This document shows, in pieces, positions 37,736 through 51,936 of a stretch of 64,000 nt of DNA. Made by a program: the position numbers and the translations under genes. Source of the DNA: Akkermansia muciniphila (GTDB taxonomy: Bacteria > Verrucomicrobiota > Verrucomicrobiia > Verrucomicrobiales > DEV007); assembly GCA_945883495.1 (NCBI GenBank), contig CAMCXS010000009.1, positions 1 to 64,000 on the forward strand, given 5' to 3'. The notes beneath the pieces are model-generated. The model worked only from the letters and a program-made list of their open reading frames with translations. It was not told the DNA's origin and made no database searches. How positions within the stretch are numbered: position 1 is the stretch's first letter; each line of letters starts with the position of its first letter.

Positions 37736-37890
37736 CTCTTCTTCGCGTTTGAAATCGTCGAGTGCCCTAAAGTCGCGTCACCGTCCACCAGTATCCTCCC
37801 CTCTCTCCCAGAGATCGGGTGCGAATTTGACTGGTGGACCGAGGCGAGATTGATCTGGGGAGAACCGATCAATCAGTGATTGGGTCATTC

Positions 37891-37922
37891 CCTCTGTGCT
37901 CCCGGTGTCCTCTGTGGTGAAG
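37891..37922 (-). repeat. Dispersed repeat TTCACCACAGAGGACACC..., copy 1
   Basis: A 32-base segment that is the reverse complement of the one at 48,878-48,909 apart from a few bases. This kind of short repeat is scattered in intergenic DNA. The two copies stand at the ends of the patatin-to-uS9 block, in opposite orientation. Confidence 0.65.
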
Positions 37923-38134
37923 AACTACCATTTCCACAAGAGAGACCAGATTCTACCCGTCCTTCTCGTTGGCGAGTGGAGAAACAGCAGACACGCCAAG
38001 TGGGGCTGAAGCATGCAAGAGTCCTCACGAGCCCCAAGCTCAGCAATTTCAGCTCCTCAAACCATTTCGCGAGAACTACGCGTTTTCACGAGTTGTCACT
38101 TGCACTCGTCGATTCGCCTGCCTACCAAATTCGC

Positions 38135-40780
38135 ATGGCGGATGACGTCCTGATCGAGGGTTCTGAATTGGCTGGCTTGAGAACAGGGCTCCGGGAAGTC
38201 CTCCCAAAGTTTGGCGATGGCAAAAGCCCTCTAAACGCCCAACGGATCGACGTTGAATCCTTCAAGCGTTCGGACCGGTCCGCAGCCTGGGAAATCTACA
38301 TCGAGCTTTCCACTCGGGTCATCTCCAAAGAGCTTCCGTTTCGGGACGGGGAAGAGAAGTCTGCGCTCGATAGCGTCTACGCCTTCTTCAAGGAAGCTCG
38401 GGCCACCCTGCGCAAGCATCCCGGCGCCGTCCTGACAGCGGTAATCGTCACCAGCCTACTCAATACCGTCATTCGGAAGTTTACCGCCAAGTGGCACGCT
38501 CTCTCCGTCGCCGGTCAATTGAGCGGAAACGACGACTGTCGGCGTTCATTCCGTTCGGAGCTTGAGTCCCTTCAGATGAAGATCGCTCCCTACGGGGAAG
38601 CGCTGCGCGTCTTAGCGGGCGACTTTCCTCCGCCGCTAGCGGAGTCAAAAGAGCTGACTGATGAACAGCCGTCTGAAAGTCCCCAGAAAACAGCGGACTC
38701 ACCACCTCAGGTGTCTACAAAGCGAAAGCCAGGCATTCCTCTCAATTTCTCTGAGGTAGAAAGCCGTGAGCTGAAGCGAATTCAAGAGCGAAGGGGAAAA
38801 GCCACGAAATTCAACCTGTGCGGCGTGAGTTTTTCTGGTGGGGGAATCCGGGCTGCAGCTACTTGTCTGGGATTTGCTCAGGGGCTGAAACACTTGTGGC
38901 AGGATGTCGATTACCTCTCAACCGTGTCTGGGGGAGGGTATATCGGAGCTCTGATCCATCAAGAGCTGAATCAGACGATACCCCGCGCTGAGGATGAGCC
39001 ATTCCTAAAGGGGGCAGCCCAGCACGCTCGAGATAATAGCAACTACCTCACCCGCTCAGTTTGGGATTGGATCGCACTCTCCTGCTGGATTCTTTACGGA
39101 CTGTTCCTTAATCTGTTCTTTTTCGTCTGGATGGGCGTGATCGGAGGGTGGGCGATCTCTTGCATCGAGAACCTCCCCATCGATCCTGCCATCGCACGCC
39201 CGTGGCTGGCAGGTGGCGCCGTTGCGATCCTCGGGGCCCTTCTCCTCCTGTCCTTGTGGATCGCTTCCCGGCTCGATCACCGCTTACCCTTCGCCGCTCA
39301 GGCCCTGCGGTTCCTAGCACGGGTGACGGCTTTCCCGCTGCTCATCGCACTCACCACTGCTGTAATCGTGTGGTTTGAGTTCTTTCAGACCTCAATGAGA
39401 GGCCCTGATCGATTCGTTGGCTTTTCATTTTCAAGCCAAAATCTGGCCTCCGTTTGCCTAGTCGGTGCGGCAGCTCTTTTTATCGGAGCGATGGTCTGGA
39501 GGTCCAATTGGTCGGGCTTCATTCAAATCCTTCTCGGAACCTTGCCTAGATTCATCGTCGTCGGCTGCGTTGTGGGGGGCGGTTATCTTTTTGACTGGAT
39601 CTTGCCGTTGCTCGACCGCCTGGATGTTCCCTTCCAAGCCTGTGATCCTTTGGTCAAGGCAGCTCTCTGCTTAGTCGTAGGCTTACTGGTTCCCGGTCTG
39701 TTCCGCGTGAACTGGGCTTCACCGCACGGTTTTTATCGGCGACGGCTGAAGCGCGGATTCTTGAATCGTAACAGACTCAGAAAGGTCAAGAAAGTATCCT
39801 GCGATGGGGTAACCGGGCCTTACCCGCTGTTCAATGCGACAGTCAATCTCCCCTTGCTGACCACGGAGCGGCTTTGGGACCGGCGCAGCGATTCGTTCAT
39901 CTTCTCTCCCCTGGCGTTTGGCAGTCGCGTCACAGGTTACTACACCGCTGACGATTTCGAAGCGCGCAACGGCGGCTTCGACCTCGCCAGTGCGATGGCT
40001 GTTTCGGGGGCTGCCTTCGCCCCAAACATGGGCAAACTGACCTTACCGTATGCTCGCAAAATGCTTTGCCTTTTTAACATTAGGTTGAGCTATTGGCTCA
40101 AGAAGCCCAGTTCATTCTGCCTTTGGCCCTGTCATCCGGGATATCTGATCCGTGACCTCATGGGTTGGTATGACGGAAGCGAGACCTATCTCAACGTCTC
40201 CGATGGGGGGCACTTTGAAAACCTCGGCCTCTACGAGCTCCTCAAGCGCCGTGTAAACTACATTGTCGCCTTCGATTTTCAGGCCGACCCGCTATGCCGG
40301 TGTGATGAGTTCGCCAAGCTGATTTGCTATGCCCGCAACGACTTCGGCGTGGATATCGACATCGATTGGAGCCCGCTCAAGCCAAATGAGAATGGGATCA
40401 GCTATCGCCACTTTGTTGTTGGACACATCTATTACCCTGACGACCCCACGCGCGTAAAACCGGGGATCTTGGTTTACATCAAACCGACACTCACCGGGAA
40501 CGAGGAACCGGACGTGAGGGCTTACAAAGTGATTAGCCCACAGTTCCCCTTTCATCCGCTGAGCGACCAAGTTTTCGATGAAATCCAGTTCGAAGCCTAC
40601 CGCAGCCTCGGTGAACACATCGCTCGAGATTTGATCAGGTGGGGAAGGAACGAACGAAGCTCCCCCACCGAGTCATCCAGCTTTGTTGCCGTTCTCTCGA
40701 AGTTAGAAGACAAGCTTGGTCCCGAGAAGCCTACTCCTGCAGCGCCACTAGAATCATCCCCAGATTCGCCCAATCTGTGA
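38135..40780 (+). CDS. Membrane patatin-like phospholipase
   Basis: I chose the ATG at 38,135 (MADDVLIEGSEL); longer readings cross a repeat. The 881-residue protein has the patatin oxyanion loop GVSFSGGGIRAA (about residue 230), the nucleophile elbow STVSGGGYIGAL (Ser near 265) and the dyad Asp in LNVSDGGHFENLGLYELL (about 690). Between elbow and Asp lie about 200 residues with six or more likely membrane helices (for example WIALSCWILYGLFLNLFFFVW). The first 220 residues are an unknown domain. Patatins of this sort act as membrane-killing effectors in several bacterial defence systems; here the role is inferred from context. Its 3' end overlaps the Nudix gene on the other strand by 50 bases. 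Confidence 0.85.
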   Translation: MADDVLIEGSELAGLRTGLREVLPKFGDGKSPLNAQRIDVESFKRSDRSAAWEIYIELSTRVISKELPFRDGEEKSALDSVYAFFKEARATLRKHPGAVLTAVIVTSLLNTVIRKFTAKWHALSVAGQLSGNDDCRRSFRSELESLQMKIAPYGEALRVLAGDFPPPLAESKELTDEQPSESPQKTADSPPQVSTKRKPGIPLNFSEVESRELKRIQERRGKATKFNLCGVSFSGGGIRAAATCLGFAQGLKHLWQDVDYLSTVSGGGYIGALIHQELNQTIPRAEDEPFLKGAAQHARDNSNYLTRSVWDWIALSCWILYGLFLNLFFFVWMGVIGGWAISCIENLPIDPAIARPWLAGGAVAILGALLLLSLWIASRLDHRLPFAAQALRFLARVTAFPLLIALTTAVIVWFEFFQTSMRGPDRFVGFSFSSQNLASVCLVGAAALFIGAMVWRSNWSGFIQILLGTLPRFIVVGCVVGGGYLFDWILPLLDRLDVPFQACDPLVKAALCLVVGLLVPGLFRVNWASPHGFYRRRLKRGFLNRNRLRKVKKVSCDGVTGPYPLFNATVNLPLLTTERLWDRRSDSFIFSPLAFGSRVTGYYTADDFEARNGGFDLASAMAVSGAAFAPNMGKLTLPYARKMLCLFNIRLSYWLKKPSSFCLWPCHPGYLIRDLMGWYDGSETYLNVSDGGHFENLGLYELLKRRVNYIVAFDFQADPLCRCDEFAKLICYARNDFGVDIDIDWSPLKPNENGISYRHFVVGHIYYPDDPTRVKPGILVYIKPTLTGNEEPDVRAYKVISPQFPFHPLSDQVFDEIQFEAYRSLGEHIARDLIRWGRNERSSPTESSSFVAVLSKLEDKLGPEKPTPAAPLESSPDSPNL

Positions 40781-41860: not shown

Positions 41861-42697
41861 TTACGGAGGGGTGGATTTTGCCGGACCGGGGACCAAACAA
41901 ACACGGAATCCCTGGTACCTGACCCGGTCGGACGGATGCCTCCCGTTCCGGAAGGCGGAACGGCACCCCCAGGCCGCGTAGAGCCAGGACCCACCACGGA
42001 ACACGCGAAGCGGGTCTTCGGGATGCTCGTGGATTTCGTTCACCGGATCCTCGACACCGTCGGCCCGTTTCGCATACGCGGCGGAATCCCAGGCATCCTG
42101 GCACCATTCGTCGACGTTCCCGTGCATATCGAACAGGCCAAAACCGTTGGCGGACTCGGCACCTTTGCCCCGGACCGCGTGCGTGCTTCCTTTCTGAAAA
42201 TCTTCACCGTACCAACCCACCGCGTCGAGCGCCCCAGTGCCGGACCCCTTCCAATAATCGGTATTGGTTTCCGCCCGGCAGGCCCGCTCCCATTGAGCCT
42301 CCGTGGGGAGGCAAGCGTGGCCATTGCGGAAATCACGCGGGAACCGGCGGCGGCAGCGTTCCGTGAGCCAGGCGCAAAAGCCGGCGGCCTCGTCCCAAGC
42401 CATGTTTTCCGCCGGATGATCGGGGCGGTCCAGAAAGTGATTCCGATGCTTCGGCTTCCAGCAGGCGAACTGCGCCTGGGTCACCGGAGTTGCCCCGAGC
42501 CAATAATCCCGGGTGAGGATCACGCGATGGACGGGTTGTTCCGCAGTCGATTCGAGCGAACCCATCCGGAACCCCTCGGGCCCGGTCGCCGGGATATGGC
42601 GGAAGCGCATCTCCACGCTCCCCCAATCCTTGGCCGTGGGGAGGCGGATGACGTGCGGTTTGAGGATGCGGTGGCACCGGCGGTCCTGGGGAGCCAT
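41861..42697 (-). CDS. FGE-like (formylglycine-generating-enzyme fold) protein 1
   Basis: I chose the ATG at 42,697. The 278-residue protein has the FGE-sulfatase fold (PF03781): RFRHIPATGPEGFRMGS, then ATPVTQAQFACW, LPTEAQWERACRA, NGFGLFDMHGNVDEWCQD and FRGGSWLYAAWGCRSAFRN, ending YQGFRVCLVP. True formylglycine oxidases use two Cys, three and eight residues after GGS. Here the first is Tyr and only the second is Cys, so this is probably a binding or regulatory domain. It is paralogous to the gene at 45,878 and divergent from the LRR-Roc-COR-TIR gene, with 117 bases between the starts. Such FGE-like proteins accompany many STAND and Roc-type systems. Confidence 0.85.
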   Translation of the reverse strand: MAPQDRRCHRILKPHVIRLPTAKDWGSVEMRFRHIPATGPEGFRMGSLESTAEQPVHRVILTRDYWLGATPVTQAQFACWKPKHRNHFLDRPDHPAENMAWDEAAGFCAWLTERCRRRFPRDFRNGHACLPTEAQWERACRAETNTDYWKGSGTGALDAVGWYGEDFQKGSTHAVRGKGAESANGFGLFDMHGNVDEWCQDAWDSAAYAKRADGVEDPVNEIHEHPEDPLRVFRGGSWLYAAWGCRSAFRNGRHPSDRVRYQGFRVCLVPGPAKSTPP

Positions 42698-42814
42698 GGA
42701 TGGGAGATCTGTTATCGCTGAGGCGGGGCGTTGGCAATGGTTCTGTGGAGTGCTACGTCGAGCGGCAGCACGCCAGATCTTGAATTCCCGCCTGACCGGC
42801 GGTATCACCCTGGC

Positions 42815-45730
42815 ATGAAGTCCGCCGCGACACCGTCCGAGCCCAAACCGGTCGCCCGCTACTATCCGGACGCGAGCACCTGGGAGGATTGGAAAGCCGT
42901 TTCCAGCGCCGCTCGGCACGGAGTCACCACCTTGACGATCGGCAAACTGCATAAGGAATGGGAAAACTTCGGCGCCTTGCCGTCCCTGAACGATCATTTC
43001 CAGGATCTCCGCCATCTCCATCTCTGGGGTCTCCAAGGCCTGACCCAACTGCCGGTCCTGCCCAAGGATTTGCTGACGCTTGACATCCAGAACTGTCCGG
43101 ACCTCAAGACCCTACCGGAACTCCCCGGCGGTTTGCGTTTCCTGGTCCTCCACAACCTGCCCGCCCTGACCGGCGGGCCCAATCCCGGTCCGTTGGAGGC
43201 CATGGAGGAAATTTCCGTGACGAACTGCCCGGAGCTGGAGGACGGCTGGCTCTACAATCTGACGCATCGCGCGGCTCATGTCCGCAAGATCAACCTTTCC
43301 GGTTGCGCACGCTTGACCAAAATCTGGCAGTGGTCCGATCAACTCGTCGATCTCCGCCTCTCGGGGTGTCCTGAGCTGGACGCCACCTTCCCGGAAAAGG
43401 CCTGGCCTGCCACCCTCTACCGGCTCCACCTGCGCGGCGCGGTGAAGCTCTCTTCCTTTCCAGTCCCGCTCTCCACAGTGGATGATCTCGACCTGGGCGG
43501 AATGACCGCCTTGCGGGATCTGCCCGCCATGAAACACTGGCCGAGAACCCTACACCTCTACGGTTCTGCGATCCAGGTCCCCGTCCGCTCCGAACATGGC
43601 TCCGAGCCGGATGCAAATGTCTCCGAGGATGCCCAGGGCTACTTTGAAGACATCAAGGAGACGGGTCCCGGCCGGGTGGCGCGCTGCAAGATCCTCATTC
43701 TGGGCAATGGCCGAGCGGGGAAGACGGTCCTGAGGAGGGCACTTTTGGGGAACAAAGTGATAAAGGACAAGGAACCCGACACGACCCACGGAGTCGAGTT
43801 CGAGCCGTGGACCGGATTTCTGCCCAATGCAAAGATTCTAAGGGAACCTAATCCGCCCAAACCGCATGTCCACCTCTGGGACTTCGGCGGTCAAGAATTG
43901 TATCACAACACCCACCGGCTTTTCGTCAGCACCGGAAGCGTATTCATCCTGGTCTGGAATCCCAAGCAGGACGGAAAGCTGGTCAACGAGGACGGTGAAA
44001 CCCTCCGGCCGTTGGCCTATTGGATCGATTTCATCACGCGCACTTCGGATTTCGCGCACCCGAGGATTTTCCTGGTCTGCGCAGCGCACGCCGACAAGCG
44101 CGATGATCTCGAAGCCCGCTGGCGCGCCCAGGCCGGCGAACACGTGAGACGCGTCGAGAAATGTTACTACATCGATTCCATGGCCCCCGATGGGCATGAC
44201 GGTGATTTGTCTCTCTTGATTGAGGATCTCCGGACCGAAACCGGAAAGGTCATCGATGACCAAGGCACGAAGGTGCCCGCCTACTGGGAGATCGGCCTGG
44301 AGATGGTCGAGGGATGGGTGAAACAGATCCAAGCTGGCACAGGTCGCGATCTCCAACATCTGACCAAGGCGAAGTTCCAACAGCACTTGGAACAGCAGAT
44401 CGACAAGCAGAAGCGGCGCTTTCCGGAGCTAAAGAAGAAATGGCGGAAAAGCTTCCTGTTAACCCCCAAGCGGATCGAGCGGACCTTGCGCTTTCTCACG
44501 CACAGCGGCTGGGCTTACTTCAACTCCCGGTACCTCGGGGATTCGGTGATCATCGGCCAACGCTGGGCGCTCGACGGGATTTACACGCTGCTGCAACGCA
44601 CCGGTCCGGTGTTTGAATACCTGAAAACCACCGAGGGCCGCATCCGTCTCTCCGCCTTGGCGAAACTGGATGCGTGGGATGACGCGCAGAAGATCAACTA
44701 TACGAAACCGGAACAGGAGCTACTGCTCCAGTACGCCGAGGCCTGTCAATTGGTCTTCCCCATCCGCGATGCCAAGGAATCGTATTGGGGAGAGAAGGTC
44801 TACGCCGTCTTTGAACGCCTGCCCGAAGACGGGCTGGCCTGGGCGCTAGGCAGCGCGGTGCCGGTGCTGCCGATTCGCCCGGATCATCTCTATCGCCATC
44901 ATTGGCAACGCTTCCTGGCTGCGGTCGGGGAGCAGTATGGCGTCACCGCGGATTACGCGCAAAACGCGTTCCGGGTCACCACGGAAGACGGCCATCAGAT
45001 TTACGTTGGCTTCCACCTGGAAGAGTCCGGATATCGCGGCGGGATCGATCTCCAGGTCGCCGGGCCCAGAGCAGACGAGATAAAAGCCGGGTTCAAAGAC
45101 GTCATCGAGAAGACCGTCCAAGGCCACGGTGAGATCCACCTGACCGGGGCCGCAAAAGGAAAGAACGTGCCGAAAGTCTTCATTTCCTATGCACGGAACT
45201 CGGTACACGAGACGGATCCCGAGTGGTCCAAAACAATGGATCACATGGCACCAGTGCTCTGCTTGGACCGGTTGCTGAGTCCGCGGACGGACGAATTCAG
45301 GCTGTTGCTGGATCAAAACGAGATTCCCGACGGCGGATCCATCCCGCGCTTCATGATTGAAATCGGTCACGCGGACCGCATTATCGGCGTGTTCAGCTCC
45401 CGGTACTTCACCCGCCCCAATTGCATGTGGGAGCTGACGAAGATCGTCGAGAGCTGCGGGGGGAACATGGATCAATTCGCGAAACTGGTGATTCAGGTGC
45501 GCCACCTCTACAAAAAGGTCGATCCGAAAAGCGATTGGATCCATCGCGACAAGATCGAGAGCTACATCCACGACGGTAACTTGGAAGCTGTCCAGACCCA
45601 GTTTCCCGCACTGTCCCATAAGGTGCAGTCGTGGATGGAGAAACATCTCGGGATCGTATGGGATGAGACCAAAGAAGCCGAATTTGAAGCGCGGATCCTG
45701 AAGATGCTGAAGGATGGGGCATTGAAGTAG
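42815..45730 (+). CDS. LRR-Roc-COR-TIR protein
   Basis: The 971-residue protein is read from the ATG at 42,815. Residues about 45-255 hold leucine-rich repeats (LRHLHLWGLQGLTQLPVLP and similar). The Roc GTPase follows: P-loop ILGNGRAGKTVLRRAL (about 293), switch LWDFGGQELYHNTHRLF (about 355) and base-recognition VCAAHADKRDD. Residues about 480-760 form the COR dimerisation part (RTLRFLTHSGWAYFNSRYL). A TIR domain ends the protein (from about 785): PKVFISYARNSVHE, then NEIPDGGSIPRFMIEIGHAD and the catalytic-type Glu in PNCMWELTKIVE. TIR domains consume NAD or make signalling nucleotides. A sensor-GTPase-effector layout of this kind fits immune function, by analogy. Confidence 0.9.
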   Translation: MKSAATPSEPKPVARYYPDASTWEDWKAVSSAARHGVTTLTIGKLHKEWENFGALPSLNDHFQDLRHLHLWGLQGLTQLPVLPKDLLTLDIQNCPDLKTLPELPGGLRFLVLHNLPALTGGPNPGPLEAMEEISVTNCPELEDGWLYNLTHRAAHVRKINLSGCARLTKIWQWSDQLVDLRLSGCPELDATFPEKAWPATLYRLHLRGAVKLSSFPVPLSTVDDLDLGGMTALRDLPAMKHWPRTLHLYGSAIQVPVRSEHGSEPDANVSEDAQGYFEDIKETGPGRVARCKILILGNGRAGKTVLRRALLGNKVIKDKEPDTTHGVEFEPWTGFLPNAKILREPNPPKPHVHLWDFGGQELYHNTHRLFVSTGSVFILVWNPKQDGKLVNEDGETLRPLAYWIDFITRTSDFAHPRIFLVCAAHADKRDDLEARWRAQAGEHVRRVEKCYYIDSMAPDGHDGDLSLLIEDLRTETGKVIDDQGTKVPAYWEIGLEMVEGWVKQIQAGTGRDLQHLTKAKFQQHLEQQIDKQKRRFPELKKKWRKSFLLTPKRIERTLRFLTHSGWAYFNSRYLGDSVIIGQRWALDGIYTLLQRTGPVFEYLKTTEGRIRLSALAKLDAWDDAQKINYTKPEQELLLQYAEACQLVFPIRDAKESYWGEKVYAVFERLPEDGLAWALGSAVPVLPIRPDHLYRHHWQRFLAAVGEQYGVTADYAQNAFRVTTEDGHQIYVGFHLEESGYRGGIDLQVAGPRADEIKAGFKDVIEKTVQGHGEIHLTGAAKGKNVPKVFISYARNSVHETDPEWSKTMDHMAPVLCLDRLLSPRTDEFRLLLDQNEIPDGGSIPRFMIEIGHADRIIGVFSSRYFTRPNCMWELTKIVESCGGNMDQFAKLVIQVRHLYKKVDPKSDWIHRDKIESYIHDGNLEAVQTQFPALSHKVQSWMEKHLGIVWDETKEAEFEARILKMLKDGALK

Positions 45731-45877: not shown

Positions 45878-46675
45878 ATGGACAATCGGTGTCTACGCAA
45901 CCAGAAGCCATGGACCCTCATTCCTGAGGGGGGCTCCCGAGGTCGGGGGAAGGTTAAAATGACCTTCCGGCACATTCCCGCCACTGGAGAGCCAGGGTTT
46001 CGCATGGGTTTCCTGGGCAACGGCTATGAGCAGCCTCCGCACCGCGTCGTGCTGACGGACGATTATTGGCTCTTGGAAACTCCCGTAACCCAGAGGCAAT
46101 ACGCCTGCTGGAAGCCGGACCACCGGAACCATTTCCCGAACCGCCACGAGAATCCCGCGGAGAGCCTCTCCTGGAAAGATGCGATGGCCTTTTGCGATTG
46201 GCTTACAACGTGCTATCAAGGCAGGTTCCCGCGCGGGTTTGTCCGGGCCGGTCTTCCTACTGAGGCGCAGTGGGAATGGGCTTGCAGAGCCGGCACTCAG
46301 ACGGATTATTGGAGCGGAACCGGGACGGGGGCACTCGATGCCGTGGGCTGGTACGAGGAGCGGCTTCCAGCGGAAGAGGTCGATACCCGACCGGTCCGGT
46401 CCAAGGGGCTGGAGGCGGCCAACGGATTTGGTTTATGGGACCTCCATGGCAATGTCTTCGAGTGGTGCCTGGACTCTTGGGATTCGGAGGCCTATTCGCA
46501 CCGGATCGACGGTGTGCTGGATCCGCTTGTCGACGAAGCGGTGGGGAACCGGGTCGCAAGAGGCGGATCCTGGGCTGCGTCGGCGGCGGGCTGCCGCGCA
46601 AGTTACCGGTATCACTGGACCGCAACGGACGGGAGCCGTGAGATTGGCTTTCGGGTCTGCCTACGACGCAATTAG
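45878..46675 (+). CDS. FGE-like protein 2
   Basis: The 265-residue paralogue of the gene at 41,861 shares FRHIPATG, ETPVTQRQYACWKPDHRNHF, GLPTEAQWEWACRAGTQTDY, GLWDLHGNVFEWCLDSWDS and RGGSWAASAAGCRASYR. As there, the residue three after GGS is not Cys (Ala) while that eight after is Cys, so formylglycine synthesis is doubtful. The N-terminal 28 residues (NRCLRNQKPWTL) differ, and an internal ATG at MTFRHIP is an alternative start. It lies 147 bases after the TIR gene on the same strand. Two diverged copies on either side of one LRR-Roc-COR-TIR gene suggest variable partners or baits. Confidence 0.85.
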   Translation: MDNRCLRNQKPWTLIPEGGSRGRGKVKMTFRHIPATGEPGFRMGFLGNGYEQPPHRVVLTDDYWLLETPVTQRQYACWKPDHRNHFPNRHENPAESLSWKDAMAFCDWLTTCYQGRFPRGFVRAGLPTEAQWEWACRAGTQTDYWSGTGTGALDAVGWYEERLPAEEVDTRPVRSKGLEAANGFGLWDLHGNVFEWCLDSWDSEAYSHRIDGVLDPLVDEAVGNRVARGGSWAASAAGCRASYRYHWTATDGSREIGFRVCLRRN

Positions 46676-46736: not shown

Positions 46737-46766
46737 ACTCCACCTGGGTGAAGCGCCGGGTGGAGT
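46737..46766. terminator. Hairpin between the second FGE-like gene and the uS9-fusion unit
   Basis: ACTCCACCTGG pairs with CCGGGTGGAGT (one T-G pair) around an eight-base loop, followed by TTGT. It lies 60 bases after the FGE-like stop and 30 bases before the next start. It may end the upstream transcript, in which case the uS9-fusion unit has its own promoter, or act as an attenuator. Confidence 0.5.
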
Positions 46767-46795: not shown

Positions 46796-47368
46796 ATGTT
46801 TGACTATTTGGAGGATTCAATGACAGAGGATACCTTTATGGCGGTAGCGATGATCGAGCCATCCCCGATGGGCCTGAATCCCGGTGAACCTGGAACGGTG
46901 TTCGTTGTCTGCGGCCGGGGTGAAGACCAAGGGCTCTACGGAGGGCACAGGTGGTTCACGCTGATCTCCCAATGGGAGTTTGAGTGGCCAGATGAGAAGG
47001 GGAGCGTTTCAATCAATGATCTCAAGGTATGCAACGAAACCGGCAAGGTGATACCATTTGAGAAGGCACCTCAGTTACTTGCGCAGGGCTTTGGGCGTCG
47101 GTCGACTCATTGGAGGTATCCTTTGGATTTAACCCATTGCAGCAATAGCCTGAGGAATCCGGAACTCTCCGATGTTGCCACCATTTCAGATCCCGCGGGC
47201 AATCGTCTGCAAGTCAACGCTCCCGTAACCTGGGCCGTGCGGGCATCGACTAGGCTGGCGCCGGATGGTTCACCTTTTGAAGATCTGTGTGACAAAATCG
47301 TCAAAATAGAAGAGTTGACGCCAAGGTTGAGCGTGACTGTGCCGAGCAAGCTCAGCGGAGGTTTGTAA
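46796..47368 (+). CDS. Unknown protein, first gene of the uS9-fusion unit
   Basis: I do not recognise this 190-residue protein. It has no signal peptide or membrane helix. The sequence is mixed alpha/beta, with TVFVVCGRGEDQGLYGGHRW, then WFTLISQWEFEWPDE and GSVSINDLKVCNE, and it ends in strand-like residues (TPRLSVTVPSKL). The alternative ATG at 46,820 (MTEDTFMAVAM) may be the true start. Its stop is four bases before the next start, so the two genes are very likely co-transcribed. Both are visibly more AT-rich than the neighbouring housekeeping genes. Given the arrangement it could be a partner, inhibitor or sensor for the uS9-fusion protein; nothing in it shows which. Confidence 0.65.
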   Translation: MFDYLEDSMTEDTFMAVAMIEPSPMGLNPGEPGTVFVVCGRGEDQGLYGGHRWFTLISQWEFEWPDEKGSVSINDLKVCNETGKVIPFEKAPQLLAQGFGRRSTHWRYPLDLTHCSNSLRNPELSDVATISDPAGNRLQVNAPVTWAVRASTRLAPDGSPFEDLCDKIVKIEELTPRLSVTVPSKLSGGL

Positions 47369-47372
47369 TACC

Positions 47373-48239
47373 ATGAACTTTCTTTTCGAGACCATTGTGA
47401 ACGAGGTGAATGAAGCCACGTCTTACGAGGCATCGAGCAAAGATCTCGACGCGCATGTCCATGTCCTGGCACCGGATGGGGATATTCTGGTGAGCCGGGT
47501 TCGCAAACATGACCGCGAACTGTTGCGTGAAGTCGGCCTCATCGCCCTAACTCCGGAAACAGTTTTCCGAGTCGAGGATGAACCACATGGCCAAGCGTCT
47601 TTGATTTTGAGGTTGGAAACAGACCGCGGCATCAACTTTGGTCGAGTTGATCCGGACGAGTCGGACGTCGCTAAAGAGTGGTGTGAAAAAGTAAACGCAT
47701 TTCTTAAAAAAAAACTCCCGGCGCCGCAGGTAGTTAACAAAGCTAGGTTAGCTACTGCCGTATCGAATTCGCATCCTCAACCATCGGGAAAGGATCGGAA
47801 ACAGCTCAACGGTCACCGCGGCCAGCAACAACGCTCGTTGGGTTTGCCCTCTCCCGTGGTCTATAAGGCTAGGGGTGGTCGAAAAAAAGCCGTGGCTAGC
47901 GTACGATTGATCTCTGGCTTTGGTCAAAACATGGTGAATGGTAGGGATTTGGACGATTACTTCCCCACCTTCTCACTTCAGAGCCGAGTGCTGCGAGTGC
48001 TGCGGGAAGCCAACCGACTCCACACGTTTTACGTCAAAATCAAAGTCCACGGAGGAGGGATCAGCGGTCAAGCCGATGCCACCATTATGGGGATCGCCCG
48101 TGCTCTTGAGCAATTGGATCCCGCCATCCGCTCCGCGATTAAGTCGCACGGTTGGCTACGTCGGGATCCGCGAGCGAAGGAACGAAAGAAGTCTGGCCAA
48201 CCCGGAGCCCGCAAGAAATTCCAGTTCTCGAAGCGCTGA
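47373..48239 (+). CDS. Ribosomal protein uS9 domain fused to an unknown N-terminal domain
   Basis: Residues about 163-288 are a complete uS9 (S9) domain: GGRKKAVASVRLISGFG, VNGRDLDDYF, VHGGGISGQADA, IARALEQLDP, RRDPRAKERKKSGQ and a C-terminal FQFSKR. Typical S9 reads GRRK..ARV, VNGR..EYF, GGG.SGQAGAIRHGI, TRD.R..ERKK and ends SKR. The SKR tail is the part that touches P-site tRNA. The GAIRHGI block is changed to DATIMGI, so this is a diverged paralogue. Residues 1-115 are unknown (DAHVHVLAPDGDILVSRVR, FRVEDEPHGQASLILRL), joined by a Gln/Lys-rich linker. There is no rplM gene beside it, unlike normal rpsI. Nine A bases (47,706-47,714) end the first domain. Confidence 0.85.
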   Translation: MNFLFETIVNEVNEATSYEASSKDLDAHVHVLAPDGDILVSRVRKHDRELLREVGLIALTPETVFRVEDEPHGQASLILRLETDRGINFGRVDPDESDVAKEWCEKVNAFLKKKLPAPQVVNKARLATAVSNSHPQPSGKDRKQLNGHRGQQQRSLGLPSPVVYKARGGRKKAVASVRLISGFGQNMVNGRDLDDYFPTFSLQSRVLRVLREANRLHTFYVKIKVHGGGISGQADATIMGIARALEQLDPAIRSAIKSHGWLRRDPRAKERKKSGQPGARKKFQFSKR

Positions 48240-48467
48240 AAACAGTTTGGCTTGAGTTCTTGCGCGTGCCAGCGTCAACTTCTGCTCCTCGCACCGAGGC
48301 GATTTCAGGGGCTGTTACCTCGCCCTCGACAATGCGCTAGACGACTCGCCTAAACGTTTTTTGTCCGGAATCTCCCTCAAGGTCAGTTGATAGGCCGGTA
48401 GCTACTCGTTCTACAGTCGCGCGATTAGCCCGAGCGTTTCCACCACGCCCCGCGCGAGTTGCGCGAT

Positions 48468-48770
48468 GATGCCGGTCGGCTTTGCGGCGACGCCGGTGGG
48501 CTGTGCGGTGATGCCGGTGGGCTGCGCAGTGGCGCCGGTCGGCTTCGCGGTGACGCCGGTTGGCTTCGCGGTGACGCCGGTCGGCTGCGCGGTGACGCCG
48601 GTGGGCTTCGCGGTGACGCCGGTGGGCTTCGCGGTGACGCCGGTCGGCTTCGCGGTGACGCCGGTCGGCTTCGCGGTGACGCCGGTGGGCTTTGCGGTGG
48701 CGCCGGTTGGCTTTGCGGTGGCGCCGGTGGGCTTTGCGGTGATGCCGGTGGGCTTTGCGGTGACGCCGGA
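48468..48770. repeat. 21-base minisatellite (14 full units plus a partial one)
   Basis: Units of the form GACGCCGGTGGGCTTCGCGGT repeat with an exact 21-base period from 48,468 and differ at a few positions (GAC/GAT/GGC at the start; TTC/TTT/TGC in the middle). One unit translated reads PVGFAVT. It is GC-rich and lies outside any convincing gene. Confidence 0.92.
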
Positions 48771-49092: not shown

Positions 49093-51936
49093 TCAGCGTC
49101 TTCCCAGGTTCACTACGAAGTTCGCTTCCAGCGCTTTGGTGATGCGGAGGGCGGTTTCGGCGAGGTGGGCTTTGGTGTAGGGGTCGAGGCCGGGGAGGTC
49201 GCGGACTTTGTCGATTTCGGCGACGAGTTCGCGGAGTTGGACGGCGGCGAGGTCTTGGACCGGTTTCTCGCCGATGCTCAATCCGGACTTGGGCTGCGTG
49301 AGATCGATGAGGCGGTCGATGTATTCCTGTTGGAGGTTGCGGCGGAGGCTGGAGATCATTGGCTGCCGGGCGGTGAAGGTGCCGTTGTGCTTCTGGCTCT
49401 CGCTTTGAAGATCGCCCCAGATCGAGGCGCGGAGGGTGTCGAGGAGCTCGGGGATGGTCAATGCTTCCTGGTCCGCCGGGATGCGGGCTTCGTTGTCGTA
49501 AACGCGTTCGAGGGTCTCGGGCCGCATCAGCATGGTGAGGACGGCTGCCTGGATGCCGAGGATGCGATCGTGGACCGGCCAAGCGGGATTTTCCATGAGG
49601 GTGGAGGGCATGGCGGAGTTATCCCACCACTTTTCAATGGTGAGGTGACGCAACAACTCGGGCGTCAGGCCATAGCTCGCTTCATCGAAGGTGTTGTGGA
49701 CCACGAATTGCAAGGCTTCCCGTTGCGCGGCGGCGGGGACGGGTTCCAAGGGGTCGCGGCTGTTCGCGCCGTTCTTCTTGTCCCGGTAGACGAAGGTTCC
49801 ACCGACCCAGTTTGCCATCATGGTCACGGCGGTGACTTGGGCTTGAAGAGTCAGTTCATAGCCGCGGCGAGCACGGGCCCAGCTTTCGCCATCCTTGACA
49901 AATTTGTCGAGGATCGCGGCGCGGTTTTTAGCGACCAAGCGCATTTGGTTCTGGGCATAGACCAGTGGGTTTTTGCCGAAGTCGTAGCGCCGGGCATAGG
50001 GGTCTGGACCCCAGGTATCTTCATCGGTGCCGAAGATCAGTTCCGGCTCGGTGGAACGGGCGAGGATCGGTTTGAGATCTTCTTGCGAGGTATAGCCGAA
50101 CTCAATGGCCCAGAGATCGTAAGGGCCGACGCCGATCATGCCGTAATCGCCTTGGATCTCGCCGGTGGCGACGTTGATATTCACCGGTATATAATCCATG
50201 ACGGAGCCCGTGAATGGCTTGTTGCCCTTGACCTTGGGGCTGTTGATTTCCTCCACGGTATAGACGGAGGAAGCCTTGAAGTTGTGCCGGAGGCCGAGGG
50301 TGTGGCCGACCTCGTGGGCCACCAAGTCCGCGAGCAGCGGGCCGACGAAGGATTCCGGGATGCCGTCGATCATCTGTTCGGCATTTTGGGCCTCCTTTTT
50401 CTTCTTCTCTTCCTCGGCCTTTTTCTTGGCTTCCTCGGAATCGGCGGGGGCGGGTGTGGGCGTTTCGCTGGCGGTGGCGGCTTCCGTCACTTCGGCGAGG
50501 CGGAGCATTTCGAGCATGGCGATGCCGTGGGATTTGCAGTTCGCGGCCATGCATAGCCCGTTCTTCTGGCTGAAGCGATGACCGAGGCCGGAAAGTTCGT
50601 GGGCGCCGAGGAGCTGACCCTTGGCGTCGGCCAGCGCATGGCCGCCGAGAGGGGGGAGGGGAGAGGTCACGCGGGCTTGGATGAGGGCGTCCCGTTCCGC
50701 CGGGGGGGCCAGACGCACCCGGGGGTCCCAGCGCGGATTCATTTGCAGCCAGGCCAACGTTTCCGGTGAGTAACCTTCCAGGGCAATGTTGCCGATGACC
50801 TCGTTATATTGCGACCAATAGTGCCGGATCCACCCGTCCGCGAGGATGATGTCGGCGTCGAGGATCTGGCCGGTATTGGGATCGACGCGGCTGGGGCCGA
50901 TGGCGACGCCGACGCCGTTGCTCAACCAGCGGACGAAATTGTAGCGGACATCCTCGGGGTCTTTCTCCATGTGGGATTTGGTGGCGGCGTCTTGTTGGCG
51001 GACTTCGATGGCGTCGATGAGGCCGACGCGCTCGAACGCCTTGTTCCACATGAGAATGCCTTCGCGGACCCAGCGGCGATAGCGGATGGGCGTGGTGTGC
51101 TCGATATAAAAGACGAGCGGCTCTTTGGGTGGGCTGAGCTTGAGGGAGGAGTCCGCTTTTTGCAGTTGCCAACGGTTGATATAGCGGACGGCAGTTTCGT
51201 CTTCGCGGAATTTGCCATAATCGGCAAACGTGGTCGTGAAATAGCCGATCCTTTCATCCGCGATGCGAGGTTTGTATTCTTTGGACTCGGGGATGAGGCT
51301 GATGGAATAATGCCAAGTGCGGATTTGGCCGTCCGCGCTGGGGACTTCGAGACCGATTTCGATGTTTTCGGGGAAAGCCTTGGCGGTCTTGATGGAGGTG
51401 AGATCCTTCTTTAGGCCCTTGGCGCGGGCGCCGAAGAATTTCTCGGCGTGGTCGACGAGCAGTGCATCGAGATCGATCACCGGGCCGCCCTTGGGCACCA
51501 TCGTGACGATCGGGATCTCGAGGAGGACTTTGTCCGTGAAGAGACGTTTCACGGAGGCTTTGGACTGGTCGTCGCCGGTGGAGCGGACCTCCATGGAGGG
51601 TTCAATGAGGGCGAGCTTTTTGTCATATTGGCGCCAATAGACATAGGCCTCGCCGGCTTGAAGGCCCGCGAATTCTTCGCCACCCGCGACCGTGAGGGCG
51701 AAATAGTGACGTTGCCTTCCAAAATCCTTGGGCAATTCCGCCAGCAATTGCTGATCTCGTTGGCGTCTCCAGACGGTATAGAAAGGTGGTTCCGCTTCGA
51801 TCGAGGAGATTACCTTTTCATAGCCTTCAGTGACTTTCTCCAGTGGCGGAAAATTCGTTTCTGTCTTGGGCGGTTCCTGGGCGACGGCGCAGGCGAGGAG
51901 GGAGAGCAGAATCCCGGCGGAGTACGGAGATTTCAT
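49093..51936 (-). CDS. Secreted zinc-dependent metalloprotease (DUF5117/DUF4953-type)
   Basis: I chose the ATG at 51,936, because MKSPYSAGILLSLLACAVAQ is a signal peptide, while the upstream ATG only adds 14 residues in front. The 947-residue protein has a large N-terminal half (FYTVWRRQRDQQLLAELP, RYINRWQLQKADSSLKLSPP), then LVAHEVGHTLGLRHNFKAS near residue 570, a metzincin-type HExxHxxGxxH zinc site with its extra His. A Lys/Glu coiled insert (EEAKKKAEEEKKKKEAQNAE) precedes it. The family is secreted and common in Bacteroidetes and the planctomycete group; proteolysis of extracellular proteins is likely. A decayed copy of its end lies at 11,875-12,021. Confidence 0.88.
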   Translation of the reverse strand: MKSPYSAGILLSLLACAVAQEPPKTETNFPPLEKVTEGYEKVISSIEAEPPFYTVWRRQRDQQLLAELPKDFGRQRHYFALTVAGGEEFAGLQAGEAYVYWRQYDKKLALIEPSMEVRSTGDDQSKASVKRLFTDKVLLEIPIVTMVPKGGPVIDLDALLVDHAEKFFGARAKGLKKDLTSIKTAKAFPENIEIGLEVPSADGQIRTWHYSISLIPESKEYKPRIADERIGYFTTTFADYGKFREDETAVRYINRWQLQKADSSLKLSPPKEPLVFYIEHTTPIRYRRWVREGILMWNKAFERVGLIDAIEVRQQDAATKSHMEKDPEDVRYNFVRWLSNGVGVAIGPSRVDPNTGQILDADIILADGWIRHYWSQYNEVIGNIALEGYSPETLAWLQMNPRWDPRVRLAPPAERDALIQARVTSPLPPLGGHALADAKGQLLGAHELSGLGHRFSQKNGLCMAANCKSHGIAMLEMLRLAEVTEAATASETPTPAPADSEEAKKKAEEEKKKKEAQNAEQMIDGIPESFVGPLLADLVAHEVGHTLGLRHNFKASSVYTVEEINSPKVKGNKPFTGSVMDYIPVNINVATGEIQGDYGMIGVGPYDLWAIEFGYTSQEDLKPILARSTEPELIFGTDEDTWGPDPYARRYDFGKNPLVYAQNQMRLVAKNRAAILDKFVKDGESWARARRGYELTLQAQVTAVTMMANWVGGTFVYRDKKNGANSRDPLEPVPAAAQREALQFVVHNTFDEASYGLTPELLRHLTIEKWWDNSAMPSTLMENPAWPVHDRILGIQAAVLTMLMRPETLERVYDNEARIPADQEALTIPELLDTLRASIWGDLQSESQKHNGTFTARQPMISSLRRNLQQEYIDRLIDLTQPKSGLSIGEKPVQDLAAVQLRELVAEIDKVRDLPGLDPYTKAHLAETALRITKALEANFVVNLGRR

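Follow-up and report, generated by a model that had tools for sequence, protein, structure and literature searches.

How does a ribosomal protein domain come to end a protein encoded beside an immune-type gene cluster, and what might it do there? To our knowledge, core ribosomal proteins rarely escape into accessory genes. The question is raised by a gene for 288 amino acids at 47373..48239 on the forward strand of the Akkermansia muciniphila DNA analysed here (the window, meaning the whole stretch of 64,000 nucleotides), which fuses a uS9 domain to a domain with no detectable relatives.

Layout of the fusion and descent of its uS9 half

The reading frame of the fusion begins with an ATG, about 11 nt after a GGAGG that falls within the 3' end of a gene for 190 amino acids; the stop codon of this gene lies 4 nt upstream of the fusion. 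The product has three parts: an acidic N-terminal domain (residues 1-118; 47373..47726, forward strand; pI 4.9), a linker (residues 119-161; 47727..47855, forward strand; pI 12, with seven K/R against one D/E), and the uS9 half (residues 162-288; 47856..48236, forward strand; pI 11.5). The junction of the rpsI copy with its partner domain lies near the start codon of rpsI. The frame of the N-terminal part has a coding-type composition, and the two other forward frames are full of stops. A scan of the window for runs reveals an A9 run (47706..47714, forward strand) at the end of the N-terminal domain, the sole A/T run of at least 8 in the 64 kb. It is a possible slippage site: a +1 or -1 shift there leads to a stop at 119 or 121 aa, a few codons on.

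Residues 168-288 cover positions 1-121 of the 121 in the Pfam Ribosomal_S9 profile (PF00380) with an E-value of 1e-37 and 129.7 bits against a cut-off of 22.5, and the NCBIfam S9 equivalog NF001099 gives 137.3 bits against a cut-off of 112. These scores exclude a chance match to S9. The first-pass annotation, made from the DNA letters alone, had described a uS9 match over the whole of a 126-residue domain, and the profile agrees, spanning 121 residues and about 126 when the homologous start is counted. It had also pointed to a FQFSKR end, a basic linker and an altered GAIRHGI block. All three are borne out: the tail GARKKFQFSKR is complete, the linker has the composition given above, and the block reads DATIMGI in the fusion and GAIRLGI in the genome's own S9.

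That annotation further took the fusion for a diverged paralogue and not the housekeeping S9, and named two findings that would speak against this, the lack of a normal rpsI in the genome and a restriction of the fusion to rplM-rpsI operons. A standard rplM-rpsI pair is present in the same genome (contig C17, locus L001), and the fusion is encoded away from it, outside any rplM-rpsI operon. The separate pair makes the fusion a paralogue and not the housekeeping rpsI. In a tree of 44 S9 sequences, the fusion S9 groups with its own rpsI and the rpsI of the same-genus genome G002 (support 100/99), on a branch of about 0.9 compared with about 0 for its own rpsI. This placement, together with the long branch, identifies a native, fast-evolving duplicate; on the tree, the fusion S9 descends from the rpsI of its own genus.

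Sequence comparison with the genome's own rpsI shows 60% identity, with 51 of 126 residues changed. Among the 40 near-invariant positions that the own rpsI keeps, just three are altered in the fusion (P ~6e-8, with columns treated as independent). Silent sites have moved much further, since 30 of the 46 shared fourfold sites differ, which indicates that the copy is old and not recent. Judged by these substitutions, the S9 fold and tail of the fusion have evolved fast but under selection. The last 28 residues hold only three differences from the own rpsI; over the last 14 codons, the own rpsI is no closer match than some other members of the family. Gene conversion is thus not needed to account for the intact tail, and the codon comparison gives no indication of it. 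Two changes stand out within the domain: an Arg that is invariant in 42 sampled S9 proteins has become Gly (GRRK to GGRK), and Ile replaces the Arg of GAIR(H/L)GI. The loss of both may lower the affinity of the fusion for rRNA.

Orphan partners and genomic neighbourhood

The N-terminal domain was said to lack a known fold, and its 118 residues indeed match nothing in Pfam, PHROGs, PADLOC or the PDB. Sensitive whole-genome searches for relatives of the fusion were made within this phylum; the domain has none in 387 phylum genomes, nor any in plasmids. A pattern scan sensitive to close relatives only, run on a single genome of each species, gave nothing for the domain among the matches listed, and neither did a pattern scan of viral contigs for the whole fusion protein. 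The preceding 190-aa gene (46796..47368, forward strand), whose product is likewise acidic, has no match in Pfam, PHROGs, PADLOC or the PDB and is absent from 75 family genomes. With both the domain and this gene lacking detectable relatives, the fusion so far stands alone.

Structure models of the N-terminal domain are of low confidence, and fold searches with such models are unreliable. Two fold candidates that emerged from them were rejected by profile tests with shuffled controls and working positive controls. A roadblock/LC7 fold, suggested by the same order of helices and strands in poor models and by the Ras-like Roc GTPase nearby, reaches an hhalign probability of 0.19% with Robl_LC7, and 27 of 60 shuffles score as well. 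An HPF/RaiA fold, suggested by weak Foldseek rows (E 0.36-0.96, model pLDDT 41), reaches 0.25% with S30AE, a score equalled by 12 of 60 shuffles.

The position after LRR-Roc-COR-TIR and FGE-like genes, as first described, is supported by domain matches. The first of these genes (42731..45730, forward strand) matches Roc at 1e-13, COR-A at 5e-9 and TIR_2 at 5e-5, the last below its cut-off, and its LRR part is recognised by eye only. It is followed by an FGE-sulfatase-domain gene (45878..46675, forward strand; PF03781, 2e-34). The fusion adjoins these genes, all on one strand, and the gaps from the TIR gene through the FGE gene to the 190-aa gene are 147 and 120 nt. The second gap contains an 11-bp hairpin (46737..46766, forward strand; -21.2 kcal/mol, z -3.1) without a long T run, a possible terminator or attenuator. 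GC3 is 0.55-0.61 in the 190-aa gene and in the fusion outside its linker, against 0.70-0.76 in the surrounding genes and 0.75 in the own rpsI. On the strength of the hairpin and this shared low GC3, the 190-aa gene and the fusion are treated as an accessory unit of their own. Any link of the fusion to the TIR gene or to immunity is suggested by proximity on one strand.

The first-pass annotation proposed looking for the same fusion with the same neighbours in other genomes, and a search with the N-terminal domain found none in the 387 phylum genomes. No conserved association of the fusion with TIR and FGE genes therefore appears in that set, nor in the 75 family genomes searched for the 190-aa gene. 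In the sister genome G002, DNA synteny (79%) covers the metzincin gene and the sequence onward and ends near window position 49103; past the break, the sequence of G002 includes an sppA-like gene and lacks an immune cluster. The genome itself carries a second LRR-Roc-COR-TIR gene (contig C11; 41% identity); an FGE-like gene is close by, and the locus contains no S9. Around that second gene (locus L063, C11:30000-49000), inspection by eye also finds more TIR-like and FGE-like genes and a 935-aa TIR-like/ATPase-like protein with an FGE-like C-terminus.

Several further features were noted in the window. A second FGE-sulfatase-domain gene (41861-43048, reverse strand) is divergent from the Roc-COR-TIR gene and overlaps its mechanical start. 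Near the immune-type cluster, 37880-40780 encodes a membrane protein of 966 aa that matches patatin weakly (8e-5, under the curated cut-off). Just downstream of the fusion, at 48462-48769, lies a 21-bp tandem repeat of 14.7 copies (CGCGGTGACGCCGGTGGGCTT) that is open in at least two frames.

S9 domains outside rpsI

A PF00380 search of 387 phylum and 384 class genomes, about 645 of them distinct by their handles, found one further S9 domain outside rpsI once fragments and split genes were set aside. It ends a 692-aa protein of genome G063 (L055:6939-9017, contig C67), matches positions 1-94 of the profile at 8.9e-17 and lacks the whole tail. The gene for this protein overlaps by 25 bp a gene for a 1571-aa DruE helicase (PADLOC, 5e-183). 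The protein itself matches no PADLOC model, including those of known Druantia partners such as DruH, and has no relatives in the collections searched. In Druantia III, DruE works with DruH, a proposed infection sensor (PMC13192584). The word "ribosomal" is absent from the main text of two Druantia papers (PMC13192584 and one other), and searches of open-access papers brought up no account of S9 fusions in bacterial defence.

Other apparent cases were set aside. The multiple S9 matches in G281, G584, G652, G694 and G706 are partial and have the appearance of genes divided among contigs or duplicated across them, or of broken frames, and the second match in G057 is below the cut-off. Most S9 matches in plasmid and phage records carry an rpsI annotation or resemble an ordinary rpsI, located on a large replicon or a piece of chromosome.

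A single origin of the two fusions is rejected, on the borderline, by tree comparison (p-AU 0.048), and the S9 fusion of G063 is probably of separate origin from that in the window. A second S9 domain beside DruE lends support to repeated recruitment of uS9 into conflict-type loci. It is a possible, if doubtful, extension of this finding that uS9 was recruited at least twice in the phylum as a module of defence proteins, as a ribosome-docking anchor beside the Roc-COR-TIR/FGE locus and as the end of a DruE partner in G063. Contact with the P site cannot be common to both fusions, since the G063 domain has no tail. If repeated recruitment is true, a class of immune factors would exist whose action depends on the uS9 site of the 30S head or on a mimic of that site. 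The two fusions in any case define a concrete genome-wide search, for S9 domains outside rplM-rpsI and in defence loci.

Possible roles and comparison with known systems

Our preferred reading, held tentatively, is that an accessory protein acquired a native rpsI duplicate as its C-terminal half, and that this S9 half docks on the 30S head and so brings along an acidic partner that modulates translation. The S9 half would still recognise the uS9 site in the 30S head, made of 16S rRNA, with its tail towards the P site, and the fusion would either join the 30S subunit as it assembles or take the place of uS9 on some of the subunits. Docking would fix the acidic N-terminal domain at the ribosome, perhaps with the basic linker lying along rRNA, and the domain could then modulate or halt translation or report the state of the ribosome. 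The setting might be a stress or anti-phage response in which the 190-aa partner, and possibly also the TIR protein encoded nearby, takes part. Slippage at the A9 run could also yield the N-terminal domain free of S9. If the fusion does bind the 30S subunit, it would be a case in which a bacterial protein of defence or stress gains access to the decoding site in the guise of a ribosomal protein.

In favour of docking are the completeness of the S9 domain and its tail, the sparing of near-invariant positions, the presence of a separate rplM-rpsI pair and the well-supported origin within the genus. Mitoribosomal uS9m shows that long N-terminal additions on uS9 are sterically possible in a small subunit, and the S9 domain outside rpsI in the Druantia-type locus of G063 indirectly favours docking or a role in conflict. 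Counted against docking are the loss of the GRRK and GAIR arginines, the lack of relatives of the fusion, the missing tail in G063, and the hairpin between the gene pair and the upstream TIR and FGE genes. The same observations bear on the other readings. The lost arginines, which may weaken docking, the tail-less S9 of G063 and the basic character of the S9 half and linker would suit a regulator that binds an rRNA precursor, tRNA or mRNA (for example that of its own operon) off the ribosome, with the acidic domain as its output. A general RNA binder would have no need of the P-site tail, which is nevertheless kept nearly unchanged, and we regard such a regulator as distinctly unlikely. Alternatively, a phage product might attack the 30S head and the S9 domain mimic its target in the host, so that the N-terminal domain or the Roc-COR-TIR protein senses modification or binding of the S9 domain and then acts, without any need for entry into the ribosome. 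The adjoining Roc-COR-TIR gene, the retention of near-invariant S9 positions and the S9 domain beside DruE, tail-less as it is, fit such a decoy or guard. However, a complete tail is not required of a decoy, the hairpin parts the fusion pair from the TIR/FGE unit, and we know of no phage factor that attacks uS9; we judge this explanation unlikely.

The fusion might instead serve as a second uS9 for some growth state, or for self-protection, as a copy with which ribosomes can go on working when attacked, with the N-terminal part as an appendage. Its domain passes the S9 equivalog cut-off, and N-terminally extended uS9 works in mitoribosomes. The long branch, the position away from ribosomal genes and a GC3 of 0.61 compared with 0.75 in rpsI tell against such a subunit and leave it quite improbable. 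Least weight is given to the view that an rpsI copy and an orphan reading frame came together by chance, giving a fusion with no function of its own. The fusion occurs in a single genome, its partner domain and the 190-aa gene are both orphans, and the sister genome lacks the cluster at the corresponding place. Against this, selection has acted on S9 positions despite near-saturated silent sites, and the frame is intact with coding composition, which makes a by-product very improbable. Ribosome docking remains the reading with the best support, since the S9 half has retained most of the features that uS9 requires for its place in the 30S head.

Among conflict systems that combine TIR, FGE and Roc-COR genes with effector-associated domains, ribosome-related domains of the S1-like and L12/ClpS types have been reported (PMC7159879). 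S9 is not among the domains named in the passages searched, and the orphan domain fits no described family, whereas the neighbours of the fusion, Roc-COR-TIR and FGE genes, are of the kind these systems contain. The G063 protein resembles the fusion in carrying a C-terminal uS9 domain on an otherwise undescribed protein in a defence-type locus, yet it has no tail, and its N-terminal part of 570 aa is unrelated. Compared with bacterial uS9 (rpsI; PF00380/NF001099), the fusion shares the complete domain and tail and descends from the rpsI of its genus; unlike it, the fusion is a second copy away from rplM, joined to a 118-aa orphan domain and a linker, with 40% of its residues changed. Mitoribosomal uS9m differs in being the S9 of its own ribosome and shows no sequence match to the N-terminal domain of the fusion, but its long chains, of 244 aa or more, likewise end in the S9 domain. 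In human mitoribosomes, the N-terminal extension of uS9m either closes the mRNA channel or opens it, and its final Arg contacts tRNA in the P site (PMC11106087); in yeast, the uS9 tail is required for initiation (PMC6344880).
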